The notes beneath the pieces were generated by a model, which worked only from the letters and a program-made list of their open reading frames with translations, ran no database searches and was not told where the DNA came from. Position numbers and translations under genes: made by a program. A DNA stretch of 64,000 nucleotides from Mytilus galloprovincialis. Its lineage: Eukaryota; Mollusca; Bivalvia; Mytilida; Mytilidae. The stretch is from the NCBI RefSeq assembly GCF_965363235.1, contig NC_134847.1, positions 46,813,305 through 46,877,304 on the forward strand, given 5' to 3'. Position 1 is the stretch's first letter; the number at the start of each line of letters is the position of its first letter. Shown piece after piece: positions 1,352 to 37,086 of the stretch.

Positions 1352-3113
1352 TAATACCGGCGTCACACATCAGCTTATAGCTCCGACGTATGCTGGGCGT
1401 GTTAAAAATTCATATACACTGCCAATACGCTAGCAATTTTGGATGCATTCAACATGTCAATCATATCTGTAACGTGTGCACAACAACCTTGAAGCGTGTA
1501 TTGTGCGTACGATAAGTGTACCTAAGCATTTATCGGGCGTTCAAGAAACGTATATTGGTGTATGTCTGGCGTTTTTATAATGTAGATGGAATGCCCGCTA
1601 CGTATGAAAAAAAAGTCTTGAACGTATTTTAGACACATCCCGGTCGTATCTTGGATGTTCTATTATGGGGTGTTTGTTACAAACACACCCACATACGTCT
1701 TAGATAGGGTCGAACAATCTTAAAGCGTATGCAACGTGCCCTAAACGTGTCTCAAAATCATCTGTAGCGGTTTTCAATGCGCTTGTAGTGTTTGTATTAT
1801 ATGTGTGTAGCGTACAGGTTTACACACACACACACTTGAGCTGGATGAATTTTTTTATGCTGCATAAAAATTTCCTCGTTGTAGCGTTTACCAAGTGTAT
1901 ACCTTTGTATTTCGACGTACTTCAAACTTATGCAAAGCGCGTTTAACGATTGCGTAGCGTTCCTCTGGCGTGCAACTAACGTATACAGACTTTGTCATTT
2001 TTTGTCGAGCCTGCAACTTTTGTTGCAGAAAGCTCGACATAGGGATAGTGATCCGGCGGCTACGGCTGCAGTGTTAGCTCACTTCTTAAAAGCTATATAT
2101 TTTAGAAGGTGGAAGACCTGGATGCTTCATATTTTGTATATAGATGCCTCATGTTACGAAGTTTCCGTCAGTCACATGTCCATTGTCCTTGACCTCATTT
2201 TCATGGTTCAGTGACCACTTGAAAAAAAAGTTCAGATTTTTTGTAATGTTAAATTCTCTCTTACTGTTAGTAATAGGATAACTATATTTAGTATGTGCGT
2301 ACCTTGCCAGGTCTTCATGCCTGTCAGACAGTTTTCACTTGACCTCGACCTCATTTCATGGATCAGTGAACAAGGTTAAGTTTTGGTGGTCAAGTCCATA
2401 TCTCAGATACTATAAGCAATAGGTCTAGTATATTCGGTGTATGGAAGGACTGTAAGGTGTACATGTCCAACTGGCAGGTGTCATCTGACCTTGACCTCAT
2501 TTTCATGGTTCAGTGGTTATAGTTAAGTTTTTGTGTTTTGGTCTGTTTTTCTCATACTTTATGCAATAGGTTTACTATATTTGTTGTATGGAATGATTGT
2601 AAGGTGTACATGTCTAGCGGGCAGATGTCATCTGACCTTGGCCTCATTTTCATGGTTCAGTGGTCAAAGTTAAGTTTTTGAGTTTTGGTCTTTTTATCTA
2701 ATACTATATCTCATAGGTCAACTATATTTGGTGTAGGGAAATATTTTTATGATCTATACATCTATATGTTGTGCAGGTTTTATTTGACCTTGACCTGGTT
2801 TTCACGGTTCATTGCTCAGTGTTAAGTTTTTGTGTTTGGTCTATTTTCTTAAACTATAAGCAATAGGTCAACTATATTTGTTGTATGGACGCATTGTTAG
2901 CTGTACATGTCTGCCTGGCATATGGTTCAACTGACCTTGACCTCATTTTCATGGTTCATGTTATGTGACAGTCGTAATAAAGCTTTATATTTAGGAGTAT
3001 CAACATAATATCAATGATTAGTAAAGAAGGCGAGACATTTCAGTTTGTGCACTCTTGTCTCTGTATGTTTGGTGCACGCTGGTCTATACGCCAATGTGTG
3101 ACTCCGGCATTAA
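1352..3113. mobile_element. TIR DNA element (non-autonomous) carrying a satellite-type insert
   Basis: The left end reads TAATACCGGCGTCACACAT and the reverse complement of the right end reads TAATGCCGGAGTCACACAT. About 28 bp at each end match imperfectly as terminal inverted repeats. The left interior (about 1380-2000) is richer in CpG and in short CGTA/GCGT words than the AT-rich surroundings. From about 2004 to 3058 the interior is a separate tandem-repeat element, so the TIR element appears to have received a second insertion. No transposase reading frame is visible. Superfamily is not assigned because no clear target-site duplication can be read. Confidence 0.6.
2004..3058 (+). mobile_element. 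Satellite-bearing element, CTTGACCTCATTTTCATGG core, about six units
   Basis: It opens with a two-part hairpin at 2004-2038 (GTCGAGC CTGCAAC ... GTTGCAG ... GCTCGAC) followed by ATAGGGATAGTGATCCGGC. About six tandem units follow, marked by TTGACCTCATTTTCATGG near 2190, 2340, 2490, 2635, 2790 and 2935, so the period is about 145-155 bp. It closes with AATAAAGCTTTATATTTAGG and GGCGAGACATTTCAG...GTGCACTCTTG. The same start and end flank a second copy at 39378-40190, which defines the element. Hairpin-framed flanks around a ~150-bp tandem core match the published pearl/HINE elements of bivalves; the family assignment is inference. Confidence 0.65.
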
Positions 3114-4401
3114 AGAGTGGGATATTCCAGTTTTCTGACAATAACTCAAAAATGCTTTTAGAAGTTTTCATGAAACTTTGATGAATAATTTACATCTTTT
3201 AGAATAACCTCCCTGTAGTTTTTGTATACATTTCTGATATGACATAGAGAAGTTATGGAATGCAATTCTTTTAAAAAAAAAAAATCAATGTGCGTATCAT
3301 GGGCTGCTGTTTATTAAAAATTGGCAACATCACATACTTTACAAAAAATACTTTGTAAAAACTGAGATAATGATGCTTCCATATATGACCTTCACTGGAT
3401 ACCTCACAAAAAATAATGTAACAAACTACATTGACCTATGGTATACAGAACAAGAAATGATGTAACAAAATTGAGAAAAACAACAATTTTTGAAGGAACA
3501 AAAGTTAAACTCTATTGTTTAATTAAACAATTTTCTGCAAAAAGTAGGTCACTATGATCTATATGTTACCTTGTTTATTCCAATGATACTTATAGTAACT
3601 TGCATTTCATTCTTATTCTGACAAGTCAAAATTCACTTCATTTTTTGTTTTGAATATTGCATAAATTTTATCCAGCCCATGTTTAAAATAATGAAATTCA
3701 TAGCATAGTTACACATTCCAGACAGGAACTGAACAACACAATAAAACTATAGAGACATCCATATCAGGTCTCCATTAATAGACATAAGAAGATGTGGTAT
3801 GAGTGCCAATGAAACAACTCTCCAACCAAGTCACAATGTGTGAAAGTAAACCATTATATGTCAAATATAGAAAAGAAGATGTGGTATGATTGCCAATGAG
3901 ACAACTCTCCACAAGAGACCAAAATGACAAAGTATATCTACCTTTAAGATCACTTGGCTAAAACCATCAGTTGACATATTTAGGAGTTATTGCCCTTGAA
4001 TAACAAGTTTTACCTTTTTTGAATTTTAGACAAATAATAGTACAATGTAGATAGAGAAAAACTAAGCAATAGCACAAATTATCAGAAAGACCAGATCTAC
4101 AAATAAGTTGATATAGCTGAAATCAGATGACTCCTCTTTCACTTCAGTTTATAAGATATTTTTATTTTTGGTGCAGTGATATGGTTAATAGAGAAACACT
4201 GTAAACATTGAAAACAATTAACAAGGTAAGATATACTAATAAGTTAACATGACAGAAATTGTCTGACAACTTTTTACTGGAGTTTTAAATCCTGAATGAC
4301 CATTTCTACCCAATTTTAAGTTCACCTTTAAGGCTAGTGTTAGATATAGCCATTGCTTGGTGTCTGTTGTAGTCGTCATCAGTAATTTGCAAAAGACTGC
4401 C
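3114..4401. other. Intergenic, partial dispersed-repeat copies only
   Basis: Mostly unique-looking AT-rich DNA. At about 3785-3945 two partial, adjacent copies of the dispersed repeat marked GATGTGGTATGAGTGCCAATG / GAGACAACTCTCC occur in the same orientation. No other feature is supported. Confidence 0.5.
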
Positions 4402-4497
4402 TCAGATATAGGAATACCAGGCGTACATCTGTTCATACATCCTTCCACGTCTTGTAAGTGCTCTCAGATATACAACTCTTGTCGTTTTCTCTCTCAT
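4402..4497 (-). CDS. Possible terminal coding exon of an unidentified gene
   Basis: On the minus strand a TTACAG acceptor-like site is followed by a 31-residue open stretch ending at a TGA (4402-4404). It contains REKTTRVVYLRALTRRGRMY and ends in EQMYAWYSYI. The composition (Arg, Tyr, Trp, no low complexity) looks coding, and it lies in non-repetitive DNA. I do not recognise the family. No upstream exon is visible because a long repeat block begins about 300 bp away. The polypyrimidine tract is weak, so chance is a real alternative. Confidence 0.25.
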   Translation of the reverse strand: MREKTTRVVYLRALTRRGRMYEQMYAWYSYI

Positions 4498-4799
4498 CTG
4501 TAACGAATAAGTGTTGCTTTTCCGTCAACAATTGTTTTACTTTTCTGCTTAAGTTAGTTTGATAGGAACTGCCAGTAATTGTGATCGATCAATGAGATTT
4601 TAAAGTTACATTACTATCAGTACATATTAATTTGACGACTATTTCGAGGCTTTTCACCCTTGGTCATGGTCCAGCAACTTTCAAATCATAACCAAGATAA
4701 AAAAAAAATATCTTTTTAGATAGCAGAAGTTATCATTCTTGGAAATTATCATTCTTGGAAATATCAATTCTGTAGGAAATTGCGCAGTTTAGGAATTAA

Positions 4800-5640
4800 G
4801 GGGTCCAAATAAGCATTTTTCTAGTTTCCAGACTATACCTTGTGTGTAAGTGTATGGATCTTTCTGAAATTGTTCCACAAGGTACAATACAAAAAAAATA
4901 GAATGGTTGGGATTGATTTTGGGGATTATGACCCTATCTGTTTAGGAATTAGGGGTCAAAAAGGGGCCAAAAACAATACTTTTCTATTACTTTGTATAAA
5001 TTGCTTATTTCTTGACCAATTTCAATGGGGTCTTATTCTTCAATTCTTGGGGTTCTTTAATTTGCTGAATCTAACCATGTATAGGTTTGGGTTTTTGGGC
5101 CCTAATTTTCAATTGGTCCACATTGAGGTCCAAAGGTTCCAAAATTATACTTTGTTTGATTTCATTATAAATTGAATTATTGGGGTGATTTGATATGAGG
5201 AATCTAACCCTGTATTTAGATTTTTAATTTTTTGTCCCTTTTCCAAATTGCTCTTCATTAAGGTCTTAAGGGTCCAAAATTAAACTTAAGTTTGATTTTA
5301 ACAAAAAAATGAATTCTTGGGGTTCTATGATGTGTCGAATCTAACCATGTTTAAGTTTTTGTTTTTTTTGGGCCCCATTTTTAAATTGGTCAACATTGAG
5401 GTCCAAAGGGTCCAAAATTATACTTTGTTTGATTTCATCAAAAATTGAATTTTTGGGGTGATTTGATATGAGTAATCTATTATCTAACCCGTATTTAGAT
5501 TTTTTATTTTTCGTCCCGTTTTCAAATTGGTCTTCATTAAGGTCTAAAGGGTCCAAAATTAAACTTAGTTTGATTTTAACAAAAATTGATTTCTTGTGGT
5601 TCTTTGATATGCTGAATTAAAAAAATGTATGTAGATTTTT
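4800..5640. repeat. Tandem ~130-bp GGTCCAAAATTAAACTTTG units, left block
   Basis: Starts with diverged units of the AAGGTTGGGATTGATTTTGGG type (4800-4990), then runs into units carrying GGTCCAAAGGGTCCAAAATTAAACTTTGTTTGATTTC...TTGATATGCTGAATCTAACC. The unit is about 125-140 bp and differs by several percent to tens of percent between copies. The minus strand stays open for short stretches (ILDPLDLNVDQFENG-like), but unit lengths are not multiples of three, so this is not treated as coding. Confidence 0.7.
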
Positions 5641-5641
5641 A

Positions 5642-6414
5642 ACCAGATTTTTGTGACAAAAATGTCGGTTATTGATTTGGGGATGTACGTCGGGCGGGCG
5701 GGCGGGCGGGCGGGCGGGCGGCAATCAAATGTTGTCCTTGCATTAACTCATGAACCGTTCAACCAAAGCTTTTAACATTTTGATATGTTGTTACTGACAA
5801 CTAAATGAAGGTCAGGTTCAATAATGACGATTTTGACTTTTACCGTTCAGGAGTTATGGTTCTTGAAAGATTGAAAAATGGAGTTTTCAGTCGTGTCCGT
5901 GCATTTACGCATGAACTGTTCTACCAAAGCTTCCCAAATTTTTATATGTTGTTACTGATGACTAAATGGAGGTCAAGTTCAATAATGACGATTTTGACTT
6001 TTACCGTTCAGGAGTTATGGTTCTTGAAAGATTGAAAAATAGTGTTTCCAGTCGTGTCCGTGCATTTACGCATGAACTGTTCTACCAAAGCTTCCTTAAT
6101 TTTAATATGTTGTCACTGCTGACAAAATGGAGGTCAAGTTCACTAATGACGATTTTGACTTTTACCGTTCAGGAGTTATGGTTCTTGAAAGATTGCAAAA
6201 TGGTGTTTCCAGTCGTGTCCGTGCATTTTCTCATGAACCATTCAACCAAAGCTTTTCAAATTTTTATATGTTGATACTGATGACAAAATGGAGGTCAAAT
6301 TTGATATTGACGATTTTCACTTTCACCATTCATCAGTAATGGTTCTTGTGATATTGCCAGGACACAAATAAATGTTAATAAATCCGGTTTGCTGTCGTTG
6401 TGACAGCCTCTTGT
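5642..6414 (+). mobile_element. Satellite-bearing element with exact 161-bp tandem core
   Basis: The left flank contains the palindrome ATTTTTGTGACAAAAAT and a CGGG microsatellite. The right flank contains the hairpin GCTGTC-gttgt-GACAGC (6391-6407) and ends in CTCTTG. The core has four units whose anchor ATGRAGGTC begins at 5805, 5966, 6127 and 6288, a strict 161-bp period with few differences between units; the last is the most diverged and incomplete. Since 161 is not a multiple of three, the short overlapping open frames across the units are by-products. Structure resembles pearl/HINE elements. Confidence 0.65.
5691..5720 (+). repeat. (CGGG)n microsatellite
   Basis: About seven CGGG repeats in otherwise AT-rich sequence, inside the left flank of the 161-bp-unit element. 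Evenly spaced GGG runs could form a G-quadruplex; that is inference from base pattern only. Confidence 0.9.
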
Positions 6415-6543
6415 TTATTTTGGACCCAGTTTTTAAGTTGGGCCGAATGGGGGTCCAAAATAAAACTTTGTTTGATTTCAACAAAAATTGAATATATGTT
6501 TTTTTTTTTTATATGCTGAATCTAACCGTGAATTTAATTTTTA

Positions 6544-7345
6544 TCTCGCCTTAACGAGTCAAAGAGCGAGACATAGGTATGCTGTTTCCAGCGTCGGCGA
6601 TGGCGATGGCATCAACAATGTATTTGTTTGTGATTAGGTCGTGTTTATGGTGAACCACAAATGGTAGGTCAATCATAGTTGGTATGCAGTTGTATAAGCA
6701 TTGGCATATCCCATTTCCAGATAATTTGGCTCCACCCCTTAGTCATGGCCTATTGACTTTTTTTTCCTAAGTTATCATGTATTAGTTTGTGATTAGGTCA
6801 GTTCAAGGGGAACCATTAGTGGTAGGCCAATGTTAATTGGTATTCAGTTGTACAAGCTATGGCACATCTCATTTCCATGGAGAATTTTTGGCCTTTCCCC
6901 TCAGTCACAGTCTAATGACTTTAAAACTCATCTTAGTTTACATGTATTAGTTTGTGATTAGACCAGTTTAAGATGAAGTGCTAATGTTAAGTCAATGATA
7001 TTTGGTAAGCAAATTTATTTGCATTTGCAGGTATCGTTTCCATGGAGATTATACAGCCCCACCCCCCTTCTTCATGGTTCTTTGACTTTGAAACTTTTAC
7101 ATTGTTTACAATGTTTGTATTTAGGTTTGGGAACGACTTATAATAAGTCAATGATATTTGGTATTCAGTTGTATTAGCATTGGCACATCGCATTTACATG
7201 GAGATTGTTTAGCCATGTAACTCAGTCATGGTTCATTGACTTTGAATATTTGCATAACATGTGTAAGATGTTAAAGTATTGCTATTTTGATTTCAACATT
7301 TGCATAATCAAAATTACAAAAAGGCGAGACATCTCTGTGATAACA
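6544..7345 (+). mobile_element. Satellite-bearing element, TTTGTGATTAGGTC core
   Basis: Starts with TCTCGCCTTAACGAGTCAAAGAGCGAGACATAGG, a potential hairpin given as a position range 6544-6575, and ends near 7323-7345 with GGCGAGACATCTCTGTGATAACAG. TCTCGCC at the start and GGCGAGA at the end are inverted. The interior has about four diverged units marked by TTTGTGATTAGGTC and by TTGGTATTCAGTTGTA, roughly 157-165 bp apart. The flank words GGCGAGACAT are shared with the element at 2004-3058 although the cores are unrelated. Confidence 0.55.
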
Positions 7346-8004
7346 GTTTATTAGAATATGGGCCCTGTTTTTGAATTGGTACACATTGAGGTCCCAAGTG
7401 TCCAAAATTATACTTTATTTGATTTCATCAAAAATTGAGGTTTTGGGGTGATTTGATAAGGGAATGAGACTGTATTTAGATTTTTAATGTTTGGGCCCCT
7501 TTCTCAATTGGTCTACATTATTGTCTAAAGGGTCCAAAATTAAAGTTTGTTTGATTTCAACAAAAATTGAATATGTGGGGTTCTTTGATATGCTGAATCT
7601 AACCGTGTATTTAGATTTTTGATTTTTGGGCCCCATTATCAAATTGGTCCACATTGTGGTCAAAAGGGTCCAAAATTAAACTTTGTTTAATTTCAACAAA
7701 AATTGAACATTTTTTTTATATGCTGAATCTAACCATGTATTATATTTTTAGATTTTGGACCCCGTTTTTAAATAGGTCCACATTGAGGTCCAAAATTAAA
7801 CTTTGGTTGATTTTAACGAAAATTGAATAAATCGGGGTTTTTTCTATGCTGACTTTAACCGTGTATTAAATTTTTAGATTTTGGGCCCTGTTTTAAAGTT
7901 GGTCCACATTGAGGTCAAAAGGGTTCAAAATTAAACTTTGTTCTTTTTCAACAAAAATTTAATATATGTTTTTTTTATATGCTGAATCGAACAGTGTATT
8001 AAAA
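7346..8004. repeat. ~130-bp GGTCCAAAATTAAACTTTG tandem units
   Basis: Five or so diverged copies of the GGGCCC..AAATTGGTCCACATTGAGGTC / TTTGATATGCTGAATCTAACC unit, continuous with the block to the left. It is interrupted at 8005 by a foldback element and resumes at 8581. Confidence 0.75.
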
Positions 8005-8580
8005 GAGTAGGTCCAGTAAGACTCCTTTTTAGCCCCAAAATATAGCAGTTTTACAAAATTATTAAAATGTAAACTTTTAGTTGTTTATTGAACAGTAGAA
8101 TGCTCCTGCTACATAAATATGGGCTGCTTTTGACAATACAATGCACATATATCGGGAACTAGCCCTATTAAGTCATGTTAAATTACTGAAATCTTCAAAA
8201 TTCCATCATTTTAGTTCAAATTTAGACGGTTTTCGTGTGAAACGAAAGTGGCCGCATTTGTGTTCATCCTTCATATTGGAAGGTAAGTTGTATTTTTTTA
8301 TAATACATAACATATATAAAGGTTGAGGATGAACACCGATGCGGCCACTTTCATTTTTGACAAAAACCATGCGAAAAGTGACATTTTTTGGCATATTTGG
8401 TAGATTTTTCACATTTCAGCTTGAATCGGATCGTTTTTAATGACTAAATCAGTTAAAATCTTTCACATAAACTAATTGATTCAAATGAAATAGACACTTA
8501 AGTGTTTAAAAAGTGGTCAAAATCTTTCGTTGGATGAACCTGAAATTTGAGGCCAAAATCAGTCCTTACCGGACCTACTC
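8005..8580. mobile_element. Foldback MITE, 576 bp
   Basis: The left end GAGTAGGTCCAGTAAG and the inverted right end GAGTAGGTCCGGTAAG form terminal inverted repeats. The fold continues inside: AAAGTGGCCGCATTTGTGTT (about 8245) pairs with AACACCGATGCGGCCACTTT (about 8333). Most of the element can therefore fold back on itself as an imperfect long hairpin. It splits a unit of the surrounding ~130-bp tandem array, which resumes at the right edge with TTTTTAGATTTTGGACCC. No transposase is encoded. Confidence 0.7.
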
Positions 8581-9548
8581 CTTTTTAGATTTTGGACCCT
8601 GTTTTCAATTTGTCCACATTGAGGTCCAAAGGGTTCAAAATTAAACTTTGTTTGATTTCATCAAAAATTGAATTATTGGGGTGATTTGATATCCCCAATC
8701 CAACCCTATATTAAGATTTTTATAAAGACCGCAAAAATTGAAAAATTTTTGGTCGTATATTGGAATCACGTTGGCGTCTTTGTCCGGCGACGTTGTCGTC
8801 CGAAGACATCTTGTTTTTGCACTCTAACTTTAGTAAAAGTCAATAGAAATCTATAAAATTTAAACACAAGGTTTATGGTTTATGACCATAAAAGGCAGGT
8901 TGGGATTGATTTGGGGTGTTTTGGTCTCAACAGTTCAGGAATTAGGGGCCAAAAAGGGCCCACATAAGCATTTTTCTTGCTTTTCGCACAATAACTTTAG
9001 TATAAGTAAACAGAAATCTATGAAATTTTAACATAAGGTCTATGACCACAAAGGAAGGTTGGGATTGATTTTGGGAGTTTAATTCCTTACAGTTTAGGAA
9101 TTAGGGGCCAAAAACAGGTCCCAAATAAGCATTTTTCCTGGTTTTTGCACAATAACTTTAGTATAAGTTAATAGAAATCTATGAAATTTTAACACAAGGT
9201 TTATGACCACAAAAGGAAGGTTTGGATTGATTTTGGAAGTTTTGGTCCCAACGAATTAGGGGCCAAAAGGGTCCAAAAGGGTCCAAAATTAAACTTTGTT
9301 TGATTTCATCAAAAATTGAATTATTGGGGTTCTTTGATATGCCAAATCTAACCGTGTATTCAGATTCTTAATTTTTGGTCCTGTTTTCAAATTGGTCTAC
9401 ATTAAGGTCCAAAGGGTCCAAAATTAAACTTAGCTTGATTTTAATAAATATTGAATTCTTGGGGTTCTTTGATATGCTGAATCTAAACCTGTACTTAGAT
9501 TTTTGATTATTGGCCCAGTTTTCAAGTTGGTCCAAATCGGGGTCCAAA
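8581..9548. repeat. Composite array: ~130-bp units, hairpin flank, ~160-bp units
   Basis: Remnant ~130-bp unit to about 8705, then a terminal-type hairpin (about 8725-8757, GACCGCAAAAATT gaa AAATTTTTGGTC) followed by a CGTTG/CGTCG-rich run. Three units of the AACTTTAGTATAAGT...AAGGTTGGGATTGATTTTGGGAG type follow, and then ~130-bp units again. The hairpin plus CGTCG run recurs at about 9895; the CGTCG run without it recurs at 15838 and 21912, and a variant at 36114. It looks like the conserved left end of this element family. Confidence 0.6.
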
Positions 9549-9777
9549 ATTATTATATAAAGTATTGTGCAATAGCAAGAAATTTTCAATTGCACAGTAT
9601 TGCGCAATAGCAAGAAATCTTCAATTGCACAGTATTGTGCAATATCAAGAAATCTTCAATTGCTCAGTATTGCGCAATAGCAAGAAATATCTAATTGCAA
9701 AGTATTGCGCAATAGCAAGAAATTTTTAATTGCACAGTTTTGTGCAATAGCAAGAAATATTCAATTGCACAGTATTG
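9549..9777. repeat. 35-bp minisatellite with internal inverted arms
   Basis: About six and a half units of ATTGTGCAATAGCAAGAAAT / TTTCAATTGCACAGT with period 35 bp (unit starts 9564 and 9599). In each unit TGTGCAAT and ATTGCACA are reverse complements, so every unit can form a small stem. Related arrays occur at 11115-11360, 12860-13155, 16868-16970 and 23197-23300. Confidence 0.85.
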
Positions 9778-11114
9778 TCCCGTTTTCAAATTAGTCTACA
9801 TTAAGGTCCAAAGGGTCAAAAATCAAACTTTGTTTGATTTCAACAAAAATTTAATATATGGGGTTCTTCCCATCTAACCATGTATTTAGATTTTTATATG
9901 AACGCAAAAATTGAAAATTTTTTGGTTGTATATTGGTATCACGTTGTCGTCGTCGTTGTCGTCGTCATCCGAATACTTTTAGTTTTCGCACTCTAACTTT
10001 AGTAAAAGTGAATAGAAATCGTTGAAATTTTAACACAAGGTATATGACCACAAAAGGAAGGTTGGGATTGATTTTGGGAGTTTTGGTCTCAACATTTTAG
10101 GAATTAGGGGCCAAAAAGGGCCCAAATAAGCATTTTCTTTGTTTTCACACTATAACTTTAGTTTAAGTAAATAGAAATCTATGAAATTTTGACACAAGGT
10201 TAATGACCACAAAAGGAAGGTTGGGATTGATTTTGGGAGTTTTGGTTCGAACAGTTTAGAAATAAGGGGCCAAAAAAGGGCCCAAATAAGCATTAATCTT
10301 GGTTTTTGCACAATAACTTTAGTATAAGTAAATAGAAATCAATGAAATGTAAACACAAGGTTTATGACCACAAAAGGAAGGTTTGGATTGATTTTGGGAG
10401 TTTTGGTCCCAATAGTTTAGGAATTAGGGACAAAAAAGGGCCCAAATAAGCATTATTCTTGGTTTTAGCACCATAACTTTAGTACAAGTAAATAGAAATC
10501 TATGAAATTTAAACACAAGGTTTATGACCATAAAAGAAAGGTTGTGTTTGATTTTGGGAGTTTTGGTCCCAACAGTTTAGGAATAAGGGGCCCAAAGGGT
10601 CCAAAATTGAACTTTGTGTGATTTCATCAAAAATTGAATAATTGGGGTTCTTTGATATGTCGAATCTAACTGTATATGTAAATTCATAATTTTTGGTCCC
10701 GTTTTCAAATTGGTCTACGTTAAGGTCCAAAGGGTCCAAAATTAAACTTAGTTTGATTTTAACAAAAATTGAATCCTTGAGGTTCTTTCTGATATGCTGA
10801 ATCTAAAAATGAACTTAGATTTTTGATTATTGGCCCAGTTATCAAATTGGTCCAAAATTAAACTTTGTTATATTTCATCAAAAATTGAATAATTGGGGTT
10901 TTTGATATGCCAAATCTAACTGTGTATGTAGATTTTTAATTTTTGGTCCCTTTTTCAAATTGGTCTACATTAAAGTCAAAATGGTCCAAAATTAAAGTTA
11001 GTTCGATTTTAACAAAAATTGAATTCTTGGGCTTTTTTGATATGCTGAATCTAAACATGTACTTAGATTTTTGATTATGGGCCCAGTTTTCAAGTTGGTT
11101 CAAATCAGGATCCA
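9778..11114. repeat. Composite array with ~160-bp and ~130-bp units
   Basis: A second left-end-type hairpin lies at about 9895-9932 (GCAAAAATTGAAAATTTTTT with flanking TATATGAAC / GGTTGTATA). Four units follow with CAAGG anchors at 10036, 10195, 10356 and 10516, so the period is about 160 bp. From 10590 the sequence switches to ~130-bp GGTCCAAAATT units. This order of parts (hairpin, ~160-bp units, ~130-bp units, 35-bp minisatellite) repeats elsewhere in the window. Confidence 0.7.
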
Positions 11115-11360
11115 AAATTATTATATTAAGTATTGTGCAATAGCAAGAAATTTTCAATTGCACAGTATTCAGCAATAGCAAGAAATCTTCAATTGCTTAG
11201 TATTGTGCAATAGCAAGAAATTTTCAATTGCACAGTATTGCGCAATAGCAAGAAATCTTCAATTGCACAGTATTGTGCAATAGCAAATATTTTCAATTGC
11301 ACAGTATTGCACAAAAGCAAGAAATATCTAATTGCACAATATTGTGCAATAGCAAGAATT
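11115..11360. repeat. 35-bp minisatellite, second array
   Basis: About seven units of the GTGCAATAGCAAGAAATTTT / CAATTGCACAGTATT family, some reading GCGC in place of GTGC. It follows directly on ~130-bp units and precedes the single-copy-like tail module beginning ATCTTTCTTTGTCTAGAATAG. Confidence 0.8.
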
Positions 11361-12590
11361 TAATTGGAGTTATCTTTCTTTGTCTAGAATAGTAGTTGAA
11401 TCAACTTAAATCATTGTTTTATACAATATACAATGTATATTCACTTTTACTACCAACTGATAAATTAAAACAATCTTTACCATTCAGTGATAACAAGCAC
11501 TTTATTTTACATTTTAATATTTTATGATGTATTTAAATGAGTAGTTATTGTTGCAAACTCCATTAGAAATTTGAATTGAGATCAGTTTTGTAAAATGGGA
11601 AAGGGAAATGTGAAAAAAAAACGGTTTTGGGGGGGGGGGGGGGGTGTTTAAATTTTTCTCATTTCAGATTTCATAAATAAAAAGATAATTTCTTCAAACA
11701 TTTTTTTGAGAGGATTAATATTCAACAGCATAGTGAATTGCTCAAAGGCAAAAAAAATATTTTAAGTTCAATAGACCACATTCATTCTGTGTCAGAAACC
11801 TATGCTGTGTCAACTATTTAATCACAATCCAAATTTAGAGCTGAATCAAGCTTGAATGTTGTGTCCATACTTGCACCAACCGTTCAGGGTTCAACCTCTG
11901 CGGTCGTATAAAGCTGCGCCCTTAGGAGCATCTGGTTAATATTTGGGCCCGGTTATCAAATTGGTCAACATTGAGGTCTAAAGGGTCTAAAATTGAACAT
12001 TATTTGATTTCAACCATGTATTTAGATTTTGGATATTGGACCATGATAGGTAAATGTCCAATTTAAAATTTTTAAGTTTTTAAGTTTAAGTTCTTAGACC
12101 ACATTCATTCTGTGTCAGAAACCTATGTTGTGTCATTTTTTTAATCACAATCCAAATTTAGAGCTGAATCAAGCTTGAATGTTTTGTCCATACTTGCACC
12201 AACCGTTCAGGGTTCAACCTCTGCGGTCGTATAAAGCTGCGTCCTGAGGAGCATCTGGTTAATATTTGGGCCCGGTTATCAAATTGGTCCACATTGAGGT
12301 CTAAAGGGTCTAAAATTGAACATTATTTGATTTCAACCATGTATTTAGATTTTGGATATTGGACCATGATAGGTAAATGTCCAATTTAAAATTTTAAAGT
12401 TTTTAAGTTTAAGTTCTTAGACCACATTCATTCTGTGTCAGAAATCTATGTTGTGTCAACTATTTAATCACAATCCAAATTCAGAGCTGTATCAAGCTTA
12501 AATGTTGAGTCCATACTTGCCCCAACTGTTCAGGTTCGACCTCTGCGGTCGTATAAAGCTGCGCCCTGTGGAGCATCTGGTTAATTATTG
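11361..12590. repeat. Tail module with poly-G tract and threefold 323-bp repeat
   Basis: 11361-11640 is the tail module (ATTCACTTTTACTACCAACTG ... TGAAAAA then 16 G at 11629-11644). Three tandem copies follow of a ~323-bp segment running from ACCACATTCATTCTGTGTCAG to CTCTGCGGTCGTATAAAGCTGCG and GAGCATCTGGTT, with the second and third starting 323 bp apart (12091 and 12414). The GCGGTCGTATAAAGCTGCGC...GGAGCATCTGGTT string is the common right end of this element family. Confidence 0.7.
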
Positions 12591-13560
12591 GTCCTGTTTT
12601 CAAATTGGTCTACATTAAGGTCCAAAGGGTCCAATATTAAAGTTTGTTTGATTTCAACAAAAGTAAAATATATATGGTTCTTTGATATGCTGAATCTAAC
12701 CATGTACATTTATTTCGATTTCTGATTATTGGGCCCCATTATCAAATTGGTCCACATTGAGATCAAAAGGGTCCAACATTAAACTTTGTTTGATTTCAAC
12801 AAAAACTGAATATATGTTTTTATACGACCGCAAGTTTGTCCAAATCAGGGTCCAAAATTATTATATTAAGTATTGTGCAATAGCAAGAAATTTTCAATTT
12901 CACAGTATTGTGCAATAGCAAGAAAACTTCAATTGCACAGTATTGTGCAATAGCAAGAAATTTTCAATTGCACAGTATTGCGCAATATCAAGAAATCTTC
13001 AATTGCACAGTATTGTGCAATAGCAAGAAATTTTCAATTGCACAGTATTGCGCAATAGCAAGAAATATCTAATTGCACAATATTGCGCAATAGCAAGAAA
13101 TTTTCAATTGCACAGTTTTGCGCAATTGAAAGAAATATTCAATTGCACAGTATTGACCTGTTTTCAAATTGGTCTACATTAAGGTCCAAAGGGTAAAATT
13201 AAATTTTGTTTGATTTCAACAAAAATTGAATATATGGGGTTCTTCAATATGCTGAGTCTAACCATGTATTTAGATTTTTAATATTTGGGCCCAGTTATCA
13301 AATTGGTCCACATTGAGGTCTGAAGGGTCTAAAATTGAACATTATTTGATTTCATCAAAAATTGAATTCTTGGGGTTCTATGATATGCTGAATCTAAACA
13401 TGTACATAGTTTTTTATTATGGGGCCTGTTTTCAAGTTGGTCCAAATCGGGGTCCAAAATTAAACTTTGTTTGATTTCAACAAAAATTGAATATATGGGA
13501 TTCTTCGATATGCTGAATCTAACCATGTAATTAGATTTTGGATATTGGAATACCACAAAG
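12591..13560. repeat. ~130-bp units with third 35-bp minisatellite (12860-13155)
   Basis: ~130-bp units surround a 35-bp minisatellite of about eight units at 12860-13155. After the minisatellite the ~130-bp units resume (GGTCTACATTAAGGTCCAAAGGG) up to TTGGATATTGGAATACC near 13550. Confidence 0.75.
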
Positions 13561-25554: not shown

Positions 25555-26420
25555 GCGGAGCATCTGGTTACTCTTGGAATTACAGATACTCATTGTTTGG
25601 GTGAACAACATGTTCAGATGAAACAACACCAACAAACATGTACAACATATATTAAAATTCCATACACCAAATGTAGTTGACATACTGCTTAAAGTATCTG
25701 AGAAACAGGTGTGAACAGAAAACTTTACTTTGACCAATGAACCATGAAAATTAGGTCATGGTCAGATGAAACCCATTTGACAGACATGTTTGTGTTCAGT
25801 CATTCTATATACCAGATAAAGTTGACCTACTGCTTACAGTATCTGAGAAACAGGTGTAAGCAAAAAAACTTTACAATGACCAATGAACCATTAAAAAGAG
25901 ATTGTGGTCAGATGAGCCCTATCTGACATATATATCCATGATACAATCATTTGATATATAAAATATAGTTAGTATACTGCTTATGGTATGACAAATGGAT
26001 GACAGCAGAAAAACTTTACAATGACCAATGAACTATGAACAAGAGATCATGGTCAGATGAGCCCTATCTGACATACATGTATATGTTACAATCATTTGAT
26101 ACATTAAATATAGTTAGCCAACTGCTAATGGTAATTAAGAAACAGACACTATCAAGAAAACTTAACCGTGACCAATAAATCATAATAAAGAGGTTAAGGT
26201 CATATAAACCCTGCAAGACAGACTGTGCACCTGACAAATATTTTATAAAGATGTCCAATTAACCTACTACATAAAGTATCTGAGTAAGAGCAAATAATGA
26301 TACTTAACCTTAATCACTGATCCATGAAATGAGGTATAGGTCAGTAGAACCTGACTGGTAGACATATAGACCTTAAAAGGATCCGATACACCAAATAAAG
26401 TTATCCTATTTCTGATACTG
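25555..26420 (-). mobile_element. Reverse-oriented satellite array of the CTTGACCTCATTTTCATGG type
   Basis: It begins with GGAGCATCTGGTTACTC, a right-end string of the satellite-element family. About five diverged ~155-bp units follow, marked by CCAATGAACCATGAA, GGTCAGATGA and GACATACATGT, the reverse complement of the core at 2004-3058. Divergence between units is higher than in that copy, suggesting greater age. Confidence 0.6.
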
Positions 26421-27492
26421 TTAATTCAGAAATAATTGCTAGGTTTTTATTATTGTGAATATGGCTACTGGTTGAGAATCCATTGATAACAACCCTGCAT
26501 TCTGAAATTTGAAGTGCATATTTTCCTTAAATCCTGATAATTAATCATGCATTTTTGTCAATTCTTAAATAATTGTAATAATAAATGCACACAAAAATAT
26601 CTTCATTTAGAGCAGAAAGTGAGAATCACATTACAAAAAATTATGGTAGTTTTAAAAGCAGTTGCTAAAATGATATGAAATGGAAACTTTGCAATGTAAG
26701 GCATATGTATATAAGATCTGAATTGTGCAGTTCTAATACCATTTGGATTATGAAGCTTTATACCAATAATTGATGCAGTCACTGGATAACATCTGTATGT
26801 CTCAAATTCAGCCTCTTTCGTTGTAGGGGAGATAATAAAAGAGAACATTTTAGGAACTTAAACTGAAAGAAATGAGCTGTTCTAAGTATTTAAACTGAAA
26901 TATGAATGTTAATACCTATCCAGCAATCAAAATACATGTAATGGAAAAGAAAGGATATGCATGACAAAACATTACAAAAGTTTGACAACCACAGGGCACA
27001 ACAAGATACATATGTTGATAACTTAGCAGGAAATGGGGCATACATCTCAAGCAGAGGGAACATAACACCCTCGTCAATATCTAAAGATTAAAATAAAATA
27101 CAAATAAATCACAAATTAAATAACTCATTTAATTAAATATCCTTTCACATATTTTATAATATGTCATACACATTACATTTCACTACATAAAATTGAAATG
27201 TATTGGTGTAAAACAGTTTAAAAAAGTCAGATAGAAAAAATGGAAAATACGTTTTGTAATTATATGCCATTTGGTGGTGTAAAAATTTTCCATCAGGTTT
27301 AGCAAGAATTTTTTGTTGAAGAAATATACATATTCTAAAGCATATGGGACATTGTTATCTACTGCAAACAATGTATCTAAATGATGTGATATTGTGATCA
27401 ATAAATATCATATTCATATTTTTAAATGTGACATCACAACTACATGTATCAATAAAACATGATGATTAAAACAACAAATTGCTATGTACTGA
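26421..27492. other. Intergenic, likely includes the TAF13 3' UTR
   Basis: AT-rich, no coding exon recognised. The part next to 27493 should be the TAF13 3' UTR on the minus strand; I see no clear AATAAA signal in the expected orientation close to the stop codon. Confidence 0.4.
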
Positions 27493-30400: not shown

Positions 30401-32998
30401 ATACTCTATAGTCCCATACGTTGTTATCGTTAATGATATTACTATATATTAGTATGTATAACTTTTCATTCTATCACATCAAAAAATATCATTGTATAAT
30501 TATTATGCAGTAATTTGCAATAGGTCTTTATCAGTGTTGGAACGGAACTGTATGTTTTTTTAATATTTTGGTCATTTGGCAGACTGTCAAGCAGGGCTCC
30601 GACATTCGCAAAATAACAAGTTACTTCATGTACTTGATGAAAACTTTGGTGAACTCCTAATGTTACTAACGTAACGGTACCCAAATTGCAACGAGTACCT
30701 AAATTGCACCTAATTGAAAAACTTTTAGGTGTAAGAATTGACTCTAATCTGTCCTGGACAGGCCATATTAATTACTTATGTTCATCTATATCATCTAGAC
30801 TTTATTTACTCTCTAAAATCAAGAAATTTCTAAATATTGATCTAAGAAAACTATTTTATAATGGTTATATTCTCCCACTGATAGATTATTGTTGTATTAT
30901 TTGGAGTGGTTGTGCTAAAAATGAGCTAGTCAGAATAATAAAATTGCAGAAAAGGGCTGCAAGACTTATTTTAGATTCTGATCCACTTTCATCATCAGCT
31001 CCACTGTTTAAACAGCTTGGATGGATGACAGTAGAGAACAGAATCTCATACCACAAATCTGTTTTGATACAGAAATGCCGAATGAAGGCCCTGTATATCT
31101 CACTGAAAAATTTAAAGATATGCCAGAAATAAACCAATATTGTTTGAGAAATGCCTCTTGCAAAAATTTACAAGTTCCAAAAGCCAAAACAGAGCTGTAT
31201 AAGAAATCTTTTATATATTCAGGATCTATTTTATGGAATAACTTACCAATATCCCTGAAAAAATCAACCTCAAGTACAAGCTCATTCAAAAAAGATTTAA
31301 AAGATTACTTGTTGGAACATTAAGAAGCTGTGCGATTTTATATGCATAATTATTTTCTCACACTTACTCAAACTTATGATATTGTTGATGGCAATACTAT
31401 ATATGCCATATATGAATTTGTAACTTTTACCTGTTTTGAAAATTGTATATTTCATAACAATTTTTTATTGCATTATTCATGTCTGTGTGTTTGTTTGATA
31501 TTTTGTAATTGTTTGTTATATGTCATTGTATTTCATGAGGGCCTCAGAGAAGATTAGCTTTATAGCTAACTGTGTAACCCTCTTTAAATAAAGAATTATT
31601 ATTATTATATTATTATATTATTATTATTATTTAGCAAAAATAGCAGCGGAAATCTTACAAGATTTCCTAGAGACTAAACAATTTGTATTTTTATGATTTG
31701 ATACTATGCACATCTTTCAATATAGGTAAAAATATTTAGATATGCACAAAACGTTCACAGTATTTATCAACAGATGAAGTGTTTACTGAAAAAGCAAAAT
31801 GTACTGAAAAGTCACCAAGCAACATCATCAAAACGTCATCTTTTTAAAATGGGCAAATACAATATGTTACAAGCATCTTTTTCTAAAAAAATGAAGAGTA
31901 AGCATGGACTTATATCCAATTGTTCAAAATATTTGAAAAAATTAAACAAAAGCTCTGTTATTAGACTTTAGAAGATGCAAATTTAAGCATGGATGCAATT
32001 TGGGTACTCTTCATTTCAGAATCATTGATGGTTTGGAGGTCAGTTTAAACCAATTTTTCTATGATTTCATATGGATTCAAAATTAAATTGGTGAAACCAT
32101 AGAATAAATAATGATACATCTACAAAATAAACATAAAATGAAAACTTTTGTCTGAAGTATAAATAAACGAAGGTTAAAAAACTCAAAATAGGTGCCATTT
32201 GGGTACCCTGATGTTATATAACGTTTCTGCTTCAAGTTTTGGTTATCAAAACATTCCATATGTATATGTTCCGGACCATATGAGTATAATACTCGTTTGG
32301 TTATTAACGGGCCGGACCATATAGGTATTTTTTTTAAAAATTACATTAGATAATTAATTACATGACAATTTATTATTTTTAATTTCCAGTGACTTCTTAT
32401 GTAACAGTTCATTGCGAAATTTTTGGAAATTAATTTTTTTAAGTCGACATATTGCCATTCACTCGTAATAAAAAATCGGTAATGACCATCGGTATAAAAT
32501 GTGTTTATTATAGTTTTGACAAATAAGTAAAATTAAAAATGTGAAACTTCTAATTTTTTATTTAGCTAATCTTTTCATTATAATATAATAATAAAATTAC
32601 CTATATGATAGCGTCTTTTTATTGAACGATCATACCATATGAAGCGTTCAGAAGTATTAAAAGTGAACTGTTACAAAGTGTCAATTACCCCGACAATAGG
32701 CATATGGTCCAAATACTCATATGGTCCGGAACATATATATGAAACAAAACAATAATAAAAACGACACATGCATCCAAACGTTTTCATTTTTTGAGTCTCC
32801 CAAATGACCAAAATATTAGAAAACCGTACAGTTCCGTTCCCACACTGTGTTTATTGTATGTCTCTGCTCTTGAACTGTCAGTTTGATAAATTAAATTAAT
32901 AGTGACTATTGTATAAAATGTATTAGTTTTACTTTATTTATATTTAAATTGGATAATAAAAACAACACCTGATCTTTTTCACTTTCAGCAGCTGCCAT
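27493..32998 (-). CDS. TAF13: TFIID subunit 13 (TAF13), complete, four exons
   Basis: Histone-fold subunit of the general transcription factor TFIID, pairing with TAF11 in the nucleus. Exons on the minus strand: 32969-32998 (start, MAAAESEKDQ), 29714-29780, 28799-28896 and 27493-27669 (stop). Phases join cleanly to 372 bp, 123 aa; the human protein is about 124 aa. The acidic N-terminus FDDEDAEDDTPLEKRKKIF leads into ELRCMMYGFGDDRNPYTESV, the start of the histone fold. The last exon has RISVEDIIFLIRKDPKKYSR and LTMNEELRKARKAFDE, closely matching the remembered human sequence. Exon 1 codes for only ten residues and is the least certain part. Intron 1 (3.2 kb) holds a SINE, a nested TIR element, a LINE tail and a MITE. 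The start codon is 335 bp from that of divergent COX17. Confidence 0.93.
29110..29282 (-). mobile_element. tRNA-derived SINE in TAF13 intron 1
   Basis: On the minus strand a tRNA-like head reads GCGCCATGGTGTAGTGGCTA with an A box at 29254-29274 and B box GGTTCAACTCC at 29217-29227. A short body with the repeated word AATCCACTTT/AAAGTGGATTG and an AT-rich tail near 29110-29130 follow. Length is about 170 bp. No coding capacity; such elements depend on a partner LINE. It lies antisense to nothing but intron, in the sense orientation of TAF13. Exact ends are uncertain. Confidence 0.65.
30709..31635 (+). mobile_element. 5'-truncated LINE, C-terminal end of reverse transcriptase ORF, CR1/L2-like
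   Basis: Frame 1 encodes LLGVRIDSNLSWTGHINYL then YNGYILPLIDYCCIIWSG and LQKRAARLIL, the thumb and downstream region typical of CR1/L2/Jockey-group LINEs. After a frameshift near 31075-31085 the match continues with LTEKFKDM, SGSILWNNLPISLKKS and SSFKKDLKDYLLEH, ending at a stop at 31321. A short 3' UTR leads to a tandem ATT tail (31595-31635), a common LINE terminus in this group. The catalytic RT core and endonuclease are missing, so this is a dead 5'-truncated copy, lying antisense to TAF13. Confidence 0.85.
32263..32737. mobile_element. ~475-bp MITE with 25-bp perfect TIRs
   Basis: TATATGTTCCGGACCATATG with AGTAT at the left end (32263-32287) is exactly inverted at 32713-32737. A shorter related word, GGCCGGACCATATAGGTA, is at about 32310, and GCATATGGTCC at 32700, so the ends are partly doubled. 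No coding capacity. It is nested inside the larger TIR element of TAF13 intron 1, so it inserted later than that element. Confidence 0.75.
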
Positions 32999-33333: not shown

Positions 33334-36300
33334 ATGCCGAAAGAAGAAGAGAAAAAGACAGAACAGAAATTAAAACCCTGTTGTGCTTGTCCAGAGACGA
33401 AAAAAGCTCGTGATGAATGGTGAGAGTTTCCAATATGATAATTTTATGTAACTTTATATTTTTTGGCATATCAAAAGAGGTGATAAAGAAACCAGAGAGA
33501 CAGTCAAACTCTTAGATCCAAAATACACTGACAACGCCATGACTAAATTTGAAAAAGACAAACAGACAAATAATAGTCTTTAGTCTTTAGTAAGTGTCCC
33601 AAATGACACTGTAAACACTTGTGTACGTTTCCTCTTTTGTAGTTTCTTCACATATGTAATGTTCACTCATGTACTTAATTGAAATTGTGGCTGCTGCTTA
33701 AAAAATTTTGATATAGATTTATAGTGTTTTTTGCTGTATAGTGTTTTTGAATCTACCAGACTCCGTTAAATAATTTTCCAGATGGCACAATATCTCATTT
33801 CGATTGTCTCTATTAATGTCTTCTTCATCGATTCCTAATAAGGTGTCTAAATCCATGTGTATATTTCCTGTAATAAAGTAAATAGATGTTTTCATCCTCT
33901 CTGTAGCCTCCTCATAGTTAGAACAATGTAAGAGGTAGTGTTCTACAGTTTCTGGCTCTCCACAGGAACAGTTTTTGTCTGATGATGGTATAATTTTGGA
34001 TTTATAATCATTTAGATCACAATAACCTGTTCTCAAACTAGTAGTAATTGAAAACGACCATTTGGATGGTAAATCTTTTGGTATTTTCTGACAGACATTT
34101 TGATGATAGTTGTAATAATTTCTGCCACGTTGACTTGATTCCCATTGGTTCTGCCATTTTCTTAAAACACTTTCTCTTGCTGCACGTTTTATATCCTGCC
34201 TGGTTACTTCTGATGGTTCTTCTATTTTTTCAGCTTCTTTAGCTCCTTTTTTATTACATTTGTAATATATATATACAAGACCTAACATAGAAAACTAAAA
34301 ACCAAGCAACACGAACATCCACTGGGGTTGATCTCAGGTGCCCCGGAAGGGTAAGCAGATCCTGCTCTACATGTGGTACCCATCGTGTTGCTCATGTTAT
34401 TACAAACCCTGTAAATAGTCACATTCATGAAAAGGGAAGGGGATTGTAGTTACGACGTAAGGAACATATCCGATTATATCATCTGTGAAACGGTTATTCC
34501 ATGACACTTGACAGTCAACCAACTTAATTTGTGATGGCGTCCTTAAAATTTAAGCAGGAATGATTTCAACTTCACTATTATGAACTCTTGGTTAAATAGC
34601 TTCCTTGTGAGCAGCAACCCTCTATCAAGGAAATCATGATAGAAAATAGAAGCCCAGGAATATCATATCACTTTATATACTCGGTATGCAGGTGCTGCTG
34701 GAATATTACTACATAGCAATGGAAAGTTAACAATTGGAAAGCTGAAATCATCTCTTCTCGTAAAGTTTTGTTTTCAATCAACCAACATTGTCAATTTCTA
34801 GATGTAAGTCCAGATATGAGGTAGGCTTAACTGTATCTGTTTTTGTTTTATCCTTTATTATGTTTATACATTGTATCTAGTTCGATGGGATAGATGCGTT
34901 CAACATAGTCCCCAAAATTTTGAATTAATATTTAGTGAGAGATCATCATTTATATAGTGGAAAGTAAAGTTAAAGGATATTGCTAACTTTTTATCTTTCT
35001 TCCTAAGAAGTTCCTGTACAGTTGAGGTTAGCCAAAAATCATGAAATATAGATGTCCTTTGACGCATATTGTATTTGTAATAATGAATTTTCATTTTGGT
35101 GTTACTTTTGTTCACAACAATTGTTGAATTAACAATATCAAGTTCTTGTGGAAAACACACCAATTGCATTGTAAAAATCTATTTATGTGCGAAGTAGATA
35201 TGAACTTTTCCAAATGATATTCCACTTTGTAAAATATCTTCATATTCATATGCTGATGCTGCTTAACAAAATGCACAAATCATATTAATTTTCGTTTTGA
35301 TTTAAAATAGTTCATATGAATGTCACTCCAATATTAGACATACATCACTTACCTTAGAACTGTCATTAAGCTTTGATGTGTTGTACAAATTAAATTTATA
35401 CTGATTCAAATATTTCACCAAATCCTGGGAAGTTAATATACAATTATGGCCCGTAGAAAAGGTGAATATCCAAAATTGTCAACACGAGAAGGTTATTTCA
35501 TTGAGGGCAAAGCCCAAAGTGAAATAATTTTTAAGGGTTGACAATTTTGGATATTCATCGATTCGAGGAGCCACAATTGTTTTATTGTAACGAACTAACA
35601 GTGGAATTAAGGGCCTTTTGAATCATTGAAAAAGCACTTACTGTATTCTTTAGCAACAAACAGTGCAACACAGGTCAGTGACGTTTGAAAATACATTTGT
35701 GTCCTAGAATTTCTTGTATGTACAAAAATGGTAGAATCTTTTTGTAAAATATTGATGGCCCCGAAAAGGACCGTTTATAAGAGGTATCATCGGCACTAGA
35801 TGCATGTCCAAAGCCTTATTCCCTCGTCTCTCGCTGGGCTTCCTGTAACGTGAACGCTGCCATTTTATTTATTTATGTCTGTGACATCATTTTCATGGGA
35901 GATAACTCGTGTACAAATCAAGAAACTCAAAAGGTTATTCGCCAGTGAATAATAGGGTTATTCACCGCGGGTGTAAATTTTTAGGGTTATTCGTCCTTCC
36001 TTGCAATTAAATGAAAATTAACTGAATTATTCAATGTCACGTGATAACGTATTACCCAATAGAATTGTTTGTTATATATGTAAGGTATAATAATATAAAT
36101 TATCTCTTTTTATTTATACGACCCCAAAATTTTTTTTCGGGATTGTATAATGGTATGATGTCTTTGTGTGCATTGTCGTCGTCTGCGTCGTCCGAAGACA
36201 CATTTGGTGTCCGGACAATAACTTTAGTTTAAGTTAATGGATCTCTATGAAAATTTAATAAGAAGGTTCAATATTACAAAAGGAAGGTTGGGATTGATTT

Positions 36301-37086
36301 TGGGGATGATGGTCCCAACTGTTTTGAAATTAGGGGCCCAAAAGGGGCACAAAACAAGTATTTATATACTTTCAGTATATTAACTTGTGTATAAGTATTT
36401 CAATTGCTCTGAAATTGTACCACAATGTTCAGTACCATAATTGGAAGGTTTGGATTCATTTTGAGGGTTATCGTGCCAACAGTTTAGGTATTAAGGGCCA
36501 AAAAGCTAGCATTTTTGTAGTTTCTGGACAATTACTTGTGTGTAAGTGTATGGATCTCTCTGAAATCGTACTTCAAGGTTCTATACTACAAAGGAAAGGC
36601 TGGATTTGAGTGTGGGGGTAATTGCTCCAAGGGAAGGGGGAGGGGGGTCAAAAAGTTTGGATGGTTCCAATTTTTTTTAAAGGGTTCCAAATTTTTAAAA
36701 TGTTCAAGAAGAATCTTTAATTGCACAGTAATGTGCAATAGATTTGTAAGATCTTGACATTTATTTTAAGTCAGAAACCTATACTATGTCAAAAATTTTG
36801 ATCAACCTCTGCAGTCGTATCAGACCGCTCAGTGAAGCATTTTATTCAAAGATTTAATAGGAAACAGACATATTATTTTTTTTTTGGCCTGATGTTGTTT
36901 AATTAATGCAACATGCCCCCATAAGAAGCATATAAAATGTCTTGTTTGTTTGTGTTGTAGAAAACAATGTAAAGGTATTATTCATTTTCTTATGTTTTCA
37001 GCGTCATTGAAAAAGGAGAAGAAAACTGTAAATCTTTAATAGAAGCTCACAAGGAATGTATGAGAAAACTGGGATTTAAAATTTGA
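33334..37086 (+). CDS. COX17: Cytochrome c oxidase copper chaperone COX17, complete, two exons
   Basis: Small copper chaperone of the mitochondrial intermembrane space that hands Cu(I) to SCO1 and COX11 for cytochrome c oxidase assembly. Exon 1 is 33334-33419 and exon 2 is 37002-37086, joined in phase within a Cys codon; 56 aa in total. The copper-binding CCAC (Cys16, Cys17, Cys19) is present. The twin CX9C motifs are Cys19-Cys29 and Cys38-Cys48, as needed for Mia40-dependent import. [16 protein letters not shown] and [17 protein letters not shown] are nearly invariant in animals. The N-terminus is shorter than in human, which accounts for 56 versus about 63 residues. The 3.6-kb intron carries several repeats. 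An AATAAA at 37326-37331 is a likely polyadenylation signal. Confidence 0.95.
33475..34425 (+). repeat. Dispersed repeat (ACCAGAGGGACAGTCAAACTC family) split by a LINE tail
   Basis: The left half (33475-33600) has GAGACAGTCAAACTC, CTGACAACGCCATG and AGACAAACAGACAAATAATAGT. The right half (34285-34425) has CATAGAAAACTA, GATCTCAGGTGCCCCGGAAG and GTGTTGCTCATGTTA. Uninterrupted copies at 55135-55390 and 60105-60340 show that these halves are normally adjacent. The 0.7-kb between them is a LINE 3' end. Confidence 0.75.
33601..34284 (-). mobile_element. 5'-truncated LINE tail, I/Nimb-like C-terminal region
   Basis: The minus strand encodes 189 residues with [35 protein letters not shown] and [10 protein letters not shown], ending at a stop near 33719. 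The CxCG...[10 protein letters not shown] zinc-type pattern lies at the far C-terminus of ORF2 in I-like LINEs with an RNase H domain. The RT and endonuclease are absent by 5' truncation. The 3' side has a doubled TCTTTAG instead of a poly-A, as some of these LINEs end in short tandem words. Confidence 0.75.
35440..35580. repeat. Inverted repeat with perfect 21-bp inner arms
   Basis: TGAATATCCAAAATTGTCAA C at 35463-35483 is exactly inverted at 35537-35557, and outer ACAATTATGGC / GCCACAATTGT (35440-35450, 35570-35580) also pair. About 53 bases form the loop. It is probably a small MITE or the end of a longer one. It lies in COX17 intron 1. Confidence 0.75.
36114..36843 (+). mobile_element. 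Short complete satellite element of the TATACGACC family
   Basis: The left end has TTTATACGACCCCAAAATTTT, which can fold on TTCGGGATTGTATAATGG, and then a GTCGTCGTCTGCGTCGTCC run. Three ~155-bp units (AAGGTTGGGATTGATTTTGG, TTAGGGGCCCAAAAGGGG, GTGTAAGTGTATGGATCTCT) follow. The right end CAACCTCTGCAGTCGTATCAGACCGCTC matches the CTCTGCGGTCGTATAAAGCTGCG end seen at 12540, 17840 and 24178. Because both ends are present around a short core and it stands alone in COX17 intron 1, it is the best guide to the element's true boundaries. Confidence 0.65.

Follow-up and report, generated by a model that had tools for sequence, protein, structure and literature searches.

Probable non-autonomous Helentrons with partly related tandem-repeat cores, including a composite type nested in a satellite, in Mytilus galloprovincialis

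The closest described counterparts of the elements reported here are the Cg_HINE elements of the oyster Crassostrea gigas, non-autonomous Helentrons (HINEs) with the same layout: a 5′ subterminal repeat with a complementary inverted repeat, a microsatellite, and a 3′ subterminal repeat, accompanied in Cg_HINE by a palindrome that is clear here in B only (PMC7492417; this paper, PMC4067079 and PMC5139131 are cited throughout from the part of their text accessible to us). As here, their central repeats are mostly 140–180 bp, insertion is T-rich without duplication and some are related in all modules; of the 11 elements, those of group 2 share flanks but not repeats, and two carry double arrays. 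The pearl family (CvA, CvE and CvG of C. virginica, and MgE, a published pearl-type element of Mytilus galloprovincialis) comprises bivalve elements with central repeats of about 160 bp; pearl was first described as a miniature inverted-repeat transposable element (MITE) and later re-categorised as a non-autonomous Helentron (PMC7492417). The bivalve satellites BIV160/Cg170, also with repeats of about 160 bp, are related to the repeats of the pearl element CvA (PMC5139131). DINE-1/INE-1 and HINE-Mo are non-coding and likewise combine subterminal inverted repeats, a 5′ inverted repeat (in DINE-1), microsatellite or tandem repeats and TT or T-rich insertion (PMC4067079). We describe four element types, A, B, C and T, in 64,000 nucleotides of M. 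galloprovincialis (contig NC_134847.1 of GCF_965363235.1, positions 46,813,305 to 46,877,304; hereafter the window), and assign them, with a probability of about 0.86, to the non-autonomous Helentrons.

The layout of the elements (Table 1) agrees with this assignment. In T and C, inverted subterminal repeats lie close to the 5′ terminus and are set back from the 3′ terminus. An inverted repeat stands beside the 5′ subterminal repeat and allows it to fold back, and a microsatellite follows the 5′ module, as detected by Tandem Repeats Finder (TRF) in B and in the complete T element T9895. Insertion is into T-rich or TT sequence without target duplication, the empty sites of B, C and T9895 can be restored, and the compact element T36 is the exception. 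These features, together with the fixed ends of A and the nesting in satellite DNA, are seen directly. An initial annotation of the window had described at least four element types, each with a tandem core between hairpin-forming flanks, and had compared them with pearl and Helentron-associated elements. The pearl/HINE-like reading fits and the tandem cores are confirmed, with consensus units of 147–166 bp; the coordinates of that annotation agree with ours to within about 10 bases. Its term "undescribed group" was too strong, as Cg_HINE has the same design and MgE is published (PMC7492417). Since that paper lists MgE and already contains frames common to repeats without relation to each other, elements of this kind, also in mussels, were known before. 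The four types A, B, C and T appear to be additional members of the kind known from oyster, a comparison that, like the one with the pearl family, was made by description only.

Table 1. Elements, element copies and satellite stretches in the window, numbered from its first base
Feature	Position	Strand	Organisation
A1	2003–3057	+	hairpin TGTCGAGCC...GCTCGACA at 5′ end; GC-rich stretch (weak); core of 147-bp units; 3′ AAGGCGAGACAT...CTCTTG
A2	39377–40188	+	ends as in A1; flanks unrelated to those of A1
A fragment	21624–21876	+	part of core and 3′ end; CTCTTG at 21875
A-type core array	25601–26424	-	ends not recognised (by eye)
B	5640–6413	+	both ends with AACC[A/G]GATTT in inverted orientation; 5′ hairpin; microsatellite; core; 3′ palindrome GCTGTC...GACAGC, then CTCTTG
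C	6542–7354	+	inverted ends TATCTCGCCTT / AAGGCGAGACA; 5′ hairpin; GGCGATGGCGATGGC stretch; core of about 163 bp
T8722 (T copy)	8722–9780	+	5′ end with hairpin; 160-bp core; 135-bp and 35-bp repeats; 3′ end not assignable
T9895 (complete T)	9895–11935	+	5′ TATATGAACGCA; GTC microsatellite; 160-bp ×3.9; 135-bp repeats; 35-bp ×6.6; tail; 3′ TGCGGTCGTATA and ...CATCTGG
323-bp tandem unit ×2.8	11761–12658	+	in each unit a T 3′ end with a segment of the 135-bp satellite; first copy overlaps the T9895 end
Putative T deletion derivative	12821–13155	+	exact T 5′ subterminal repeat TATACGACCGCA abutting interior sequence and 35-bp array
T copy, 5′-truncated	15838–17876	+	160-, 135-, 35- and 155-bp arrays; tail; 3′ end; 5′ hairpin missing
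T copy, 5′-truncated	21912–24213	+	identical order of 160-, 135-, 35- and 155-bp arrays; 5′ hairpin missing
T36 (compact T)	36115–36840	+	outside satellite; 5′ and 3′ subterminal repeats; 160-bp-type units only; 3′ end approximate
135-bp satellite stretches	5039–15839	+	discontinuous; partly inside T elements; host nested insertions; further stretches up to 24437

A1 and A2 are 0.908 identical across 770 aligned bases. Fixity of the ends was assessed as identity inside versus outside each end, for which random 45-mers gave a mean of 0.49 and a 99th percentile of 0.60. The 5′ end of A is fixed in one pair (2 copies; 0.87 inside, 0.52 outside) and its 3′ end in three pairs (3 copies; 0.84–0.89 inside, 0.51–0.57 outside). 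The ends of T are less clean, with 0.63–0.85 inside and 0.51–0.58 outside for three 5′ pairs, and 0.60–0.93 inside and 0.41–0.91 outside for ten 3′ pairs, one of which (11935/24213) has satellite flanks in common. Within the window, the fixed flanks anticipated by the initial annotation are thus found in A; in T they are less sharply defined, though the end words are common to the T copies. By eye, A1 is inserted in an older element at 1353–3110 with inverted ends ACCGGCGTCACACAT...ATGTGTGACTCCGGCAT.

Inverted end matches were scored against 1000 shuffles, and fold-backs and 3′ palindromes against 300. The inverted ends of C comprise 9 exact bases (19/1000), the exact base of its 3′ end being uncertain between 7346 and 7354. 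The match of T9895 was reached by 29/1000 shuffles and that of T36 by 11/1000, but the latter involves an AT-rich word and not the subterminal repeat. TGCGGTCGTATA occurs exactly six times, always at T 3′ ends, and three of these occurrences belong to the tandem array of 323-bp units. In inverted form the word is found without mismatch at 12821 (12/12 against the six 3′ copies) and with 1 mismatch at 36115. The inverted repeats are placed asymmetrically, being terminal on the 5′ side but about 20–35 bp in from the 3′ end. Hairpins at the 5′ end exceed shuffles at four of seven ends (A1, B, C and T8722, each with at most 4/300 shuffles as stable), and a 3′ palindrome is clear in B (0/300). The hairpin flanks initially ascribed to every type are better than shuffles at these four 5′ ends and, among nine 3′ ends, in B only, where alone the 3′ stem-loop described for DINE-1/INE-1 and HINE-Mo (PMC4067079) rises above shuffles. 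The T hairpin GACCGCAAAAATT...AAATTTTTGGTC had been assigned to three T ranges and is instead located at 8727; 15838–17876 and 21912–24213 are without it, and the 5′ hairpin of T36 at 36115 is a variant. TRF detected the microsatellites (CGGG)7.8 at 5691–5721 in B and CGTTGTCGTCGT at 9942–9966 in T9895. In A and C this position holds only short GC-rich triplets (by eye).

Three elements, B, C and T9895, are inserted within the 135-bp satellite. When 60 bases from each side of these elements were joined, the full 120 bases could be aligned with the 135-bp consensus, scoring 138, 130 and 171, respectively, compared with a score of 37 for A1, a control outside the satellite. The junction reads GATTTT/TAAT, with the monomer in phase and without target duplication. 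The alignments carry junction insertions of 8 bases in C, 2 in T9895 and 1 in B, other gaps lying away from the junction; those in C and T9895 arise because the join fell 11 bases short of the likely end in C (at 7343) and one base short in T9895 (at 11934). Among the ends examined, four of five 5′ ends fall at monomer position 88–89 and seven of eight 3′ ends at 82–94, the latter including tandem duplicates that are not independent. The ends at 12821 and 17876 lie near monomer position 46–53, next to a local TTTT. As the monomer holds 28 TT steps and three T-runs of four or more, a preference for T-runs may explain the clustering. Direct repeats at the ends were scored against 300 random pairs, and none was significant in A1, A2, B, C or T9895 (the best were matched by 48 to 260 of 300). 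Insertion without a significant target duplication, a feature that the initial annotation had put forward as a test, was found in five of six elements.

The satellite also hosts other insertions. At 17989–20730, inside the 135-bp satellite, lies what is left of a BEL/Pao-like retroelement, which matches DUF1759 (E 3.8e-42) and the protease family DUF1758; by eye it has similar terminal repeats and a GATTT duplication, and its frames of at least 90 aa gave no match to a pol family. At 8010–8580 lies a further element with inverted ends of about 21 bp, GAGTAGGTCC...GGACCTACTC, probably a MITE (by eye).

In T, up to four tandem arrays per element follow one another in a fixed order, which is unusual compared with the at most two described for Cg_HINE in PMC7492417, again by description only. 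Its core units of about 160 bp (consensus 161 bp) are found at 8813–9252, 9982–10605, 15875–16343, 21954–22403 and 36272–36584. The two truncated copies are 0.963 identical over 1984 aligned bases (15875–17876 versus 21954–24213) and have different outer flanks (3′ outside identity 0.52). T9895 carries the first three of the four arrays, with 89.0% identity to 21954–24213 over 1878 aligned bases, and T36 is without the 135-bp array. The three T places listed in the initial annotation are real; the complete element T9895 and the T ends at 8722 and 12821 had been overlooked.

Cores were identified by TRF or by the spacing between units. The A consensus unit is 147 bp (2340–2958 and 39512–40074, TRF) and that of B 161 bp (×3.8, 5733–6348, TRF). 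The C core, absent from the TRF listing, has a consensus of 166 bp and unit spacings of 159, 165 and 163 at 6622–7109. Profiles built from 8 A, 3 B, 3 C, 11 T and 19 135-bp units were compared with each other, using block-shuffled controls (200 shuffles) and a reversed control. A and C scored 28.3 against 10.5 ± 1.9 (z 9.5, 0/200 shuffles; reversed control 9.8). Judged from these profiles, the A and C cores are homologous, contrary to the initial view that cores behind the common flank word GGCGAGACAT are unrelated. Their alignment has 123 identities in 195 columns and wraps round the unit, so that some positions are counted twice. A and C also share AAGGCGAGACAT exactly, and both arrays end near CATGGTTCA (by eye). 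The pair has the appearance of a single lineage diverging as one unit, the group 1 pattern of PMC7492417.

By the same comparison the T core and the 135-bp repeat are related (z 4.2, 0/200 shuffles), and the 135-bp array of T may be derived from its 160-bp core. The switch from 160 to 135 bp lies in a matching GGGCC...AAAGGGTCCAAA segment in the four T copies that have both arrays (by eye); it counts as one event, since these copies share descent. B and T agree at 80/161 ungapped positions (0/2000 shuffles; 0/1500 161-mers of the window). Their relation is only suggestive, because the minus strand, with 72/161, is likewise above controls, both strands score in the profiles (z 3.5 and 3.4), and the reversed control is high (14.3 versus 16.7). 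No relation was found for seven of ten plus-strand core pairs (31 to 166 of 200 shuffles), including B and C against the 135-bp repeat (49 and 88 of 200). Alignment of consensuses only was much weaker (A–C 12/300, T against the 135-bp repeat 38/300, B–T 63/300 on the plus and 2/300 on the minus strand). In 20 nhmmer comparisons of consensuses, C matched A at E 9e-5, T the 135-bp repeat at 0.0023 and B matched T at 0.006. Self-complementarity of the units was not clearly beyond chance (lowest count 25/500, in B). Two BIV160 primer sequences given in PMC5139131 did not match any of the five cores at ≤15/500 shuffles, which is a weak test.

These relations bear on how the cores came to lie between such flanks. 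One mobile frame could capture and exchange unrelated satellites, as in group 2 of Cg_HINE, the published case in oyster (PMC7492417); the exact AAGGCGAGACAT in A and C and the seven unrelated core pairs would agree with this. We nevertheless consider it unlikely, as A and C, the very pair with the common flank word, have homologous cores, the T core is related to the 135-bp repeat, and the agreement of B with T exceeds its controls, though on both strands. Somewhat less doubtful, but still tentative, is the possibility that the cores stem from very few ancient repeats that were never outside a Helentron frame (A with C; B with the 160-bp T core and the 135-bp repeat). Satellites would then be made inside the element by divergence and register shift, as in the change from 160 to 135 bp in T, and not captured; T would then land in its own satellite and give rise to a self-feeding nested array.

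The movement of non-autonomous Helentrons of this kind would depend on an autonomous Helentron elsewhere in the genome that supplies a Rep/helicase protein in trans. This protein would recognise the subterminal repeats and hairpins. Judging from the family, the element would be copied to its 3′ end by rolling-circle replication, and the copy would insert into T-runs without duplicating the target. The internal arrays would travel as cargo and diverge along with the element (A with C; probably the 160-bp with the 135-bp array in T), so that T elements would probably both build the 135-bp satellite and land in it. A scan of the window's 39 closed frames that reach 90 aa gave no match to a Rep or helicase family at E 0.01; an autonomous partner would have to lie elsewhere.

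Several observations weigh against the Helentron assignment. The inverted end match of A is at chance (557/1000 shuffles for A1 and 983/1000 for A2; by eye 7/9 bases agree), and A is placed among the non-autonomous Helentrons mainly via its relation to C. Neither the inverted end repeat of B, despite 9/10 bases, nor the end match of T8722 is significant alone (284/1000 and 177/1000), and the 5′ copy in T9895 differs from its own 3′ TGCGGTCGTATA at 2 bases. The 5′ fold-backs of A2 (65/300), T9895 (39/300) and T36 (17/300) are not significant, and eight of the nine 3′ ends, all but that of B, have palindromes no better than shuffles (21 to 280 of 300). The T 3′ pair 17876/36840 has no drop in identity (0.60 inside, 0.61 outside). 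T36 carries the 7-base direct repeat TTTTATT on both sides (5/300 random pairs). Finally, the copies per family are few and all within one window, in which no autonomous Helentron partner was seen.

The direct repeat of T36 is what would be expected of MITEs, which move by cut and paste, have terminal inverted repeats, duplicate their target and would hold tandem repeats only incidentally, and pearl was originally described as such (PMC7492417). This origin is very improbable, since the inverted repeats are asymmetric, five of six elements have no significant direct repeat, and a satellite monomer is recovered, with nothing duplicated, when the sequences on either side of B, C and T9895 are joined. 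Least probable of all is a single complex satellite, expanded and rearranged without transposition and with internal hairpins: B, C and all T copies except T36 touch or sit in the 135-bp array, the 323-bp unit that contains T 3′ ends forms a tandem array of its own and most examined T ends share one monomer position, but A1 and A2 have the same ends in unrelated flanks outside the array, T36 also lies outside it, the plus-strand profiles of B and C are unrelated to the 135-bp repeat, and removal of B or C restores the monomer.

Canonical Helitrons have a 5′ TC and a 3′ CTRR and insert between A and T. They were considered and rejected: T starts with TATA, ends with CTGG and inserts in T-runs, and A and B end with CTTG.

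In this eukaryotic window Pfam detects two domains in split frames, a DnaJ C-terminal domain and one like CFAP65/HYDIN. These belong to host genes at 40800–63950, the former on the minus strand (E 5.6e-06) and the latter on the plus strand (E 2.3e-06). Other features comprise a tRNA-like sequence at 24955–25026 (Rfam RF00005, 45.4 bits), possibly the head of a short interspersed nuclear element, whose anticodon was not clear to ARAGORN; open frames at 30653–31323 that by eye resemble the 3′ part of the reverse transcriptase of a long interspersed nuclear element, with ATT repeats behind them and without a Pfam match at 0.01; and a 30-bp unit perfectly duplicated in tandem at 38280–38341 (TRF). 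No copies of the elements were found in virus, plasmid, phage, bacterial and archaeal collections (phages and plasmids with window positions 2000–9800 only), which says little, since the described contents are viruses, plasmids, bacteria and archaea. The element words and the common repeat word of the window had no match in paper text; figures and supplements lay outside the search, and absence from print is not implied.

The most interesting outcome is the composite T element, together with an indication that it is within the frame that satellites form and diverge. Capture of satellites by Helentrons and their formation inside them are two open scenarios in the oyster work (PMC7492417). Because related cores here lie in related frames, and a multi-array element lies beside a satellite that receives new insertions, the question of capture versus formation becomes testable with one mussel genome.

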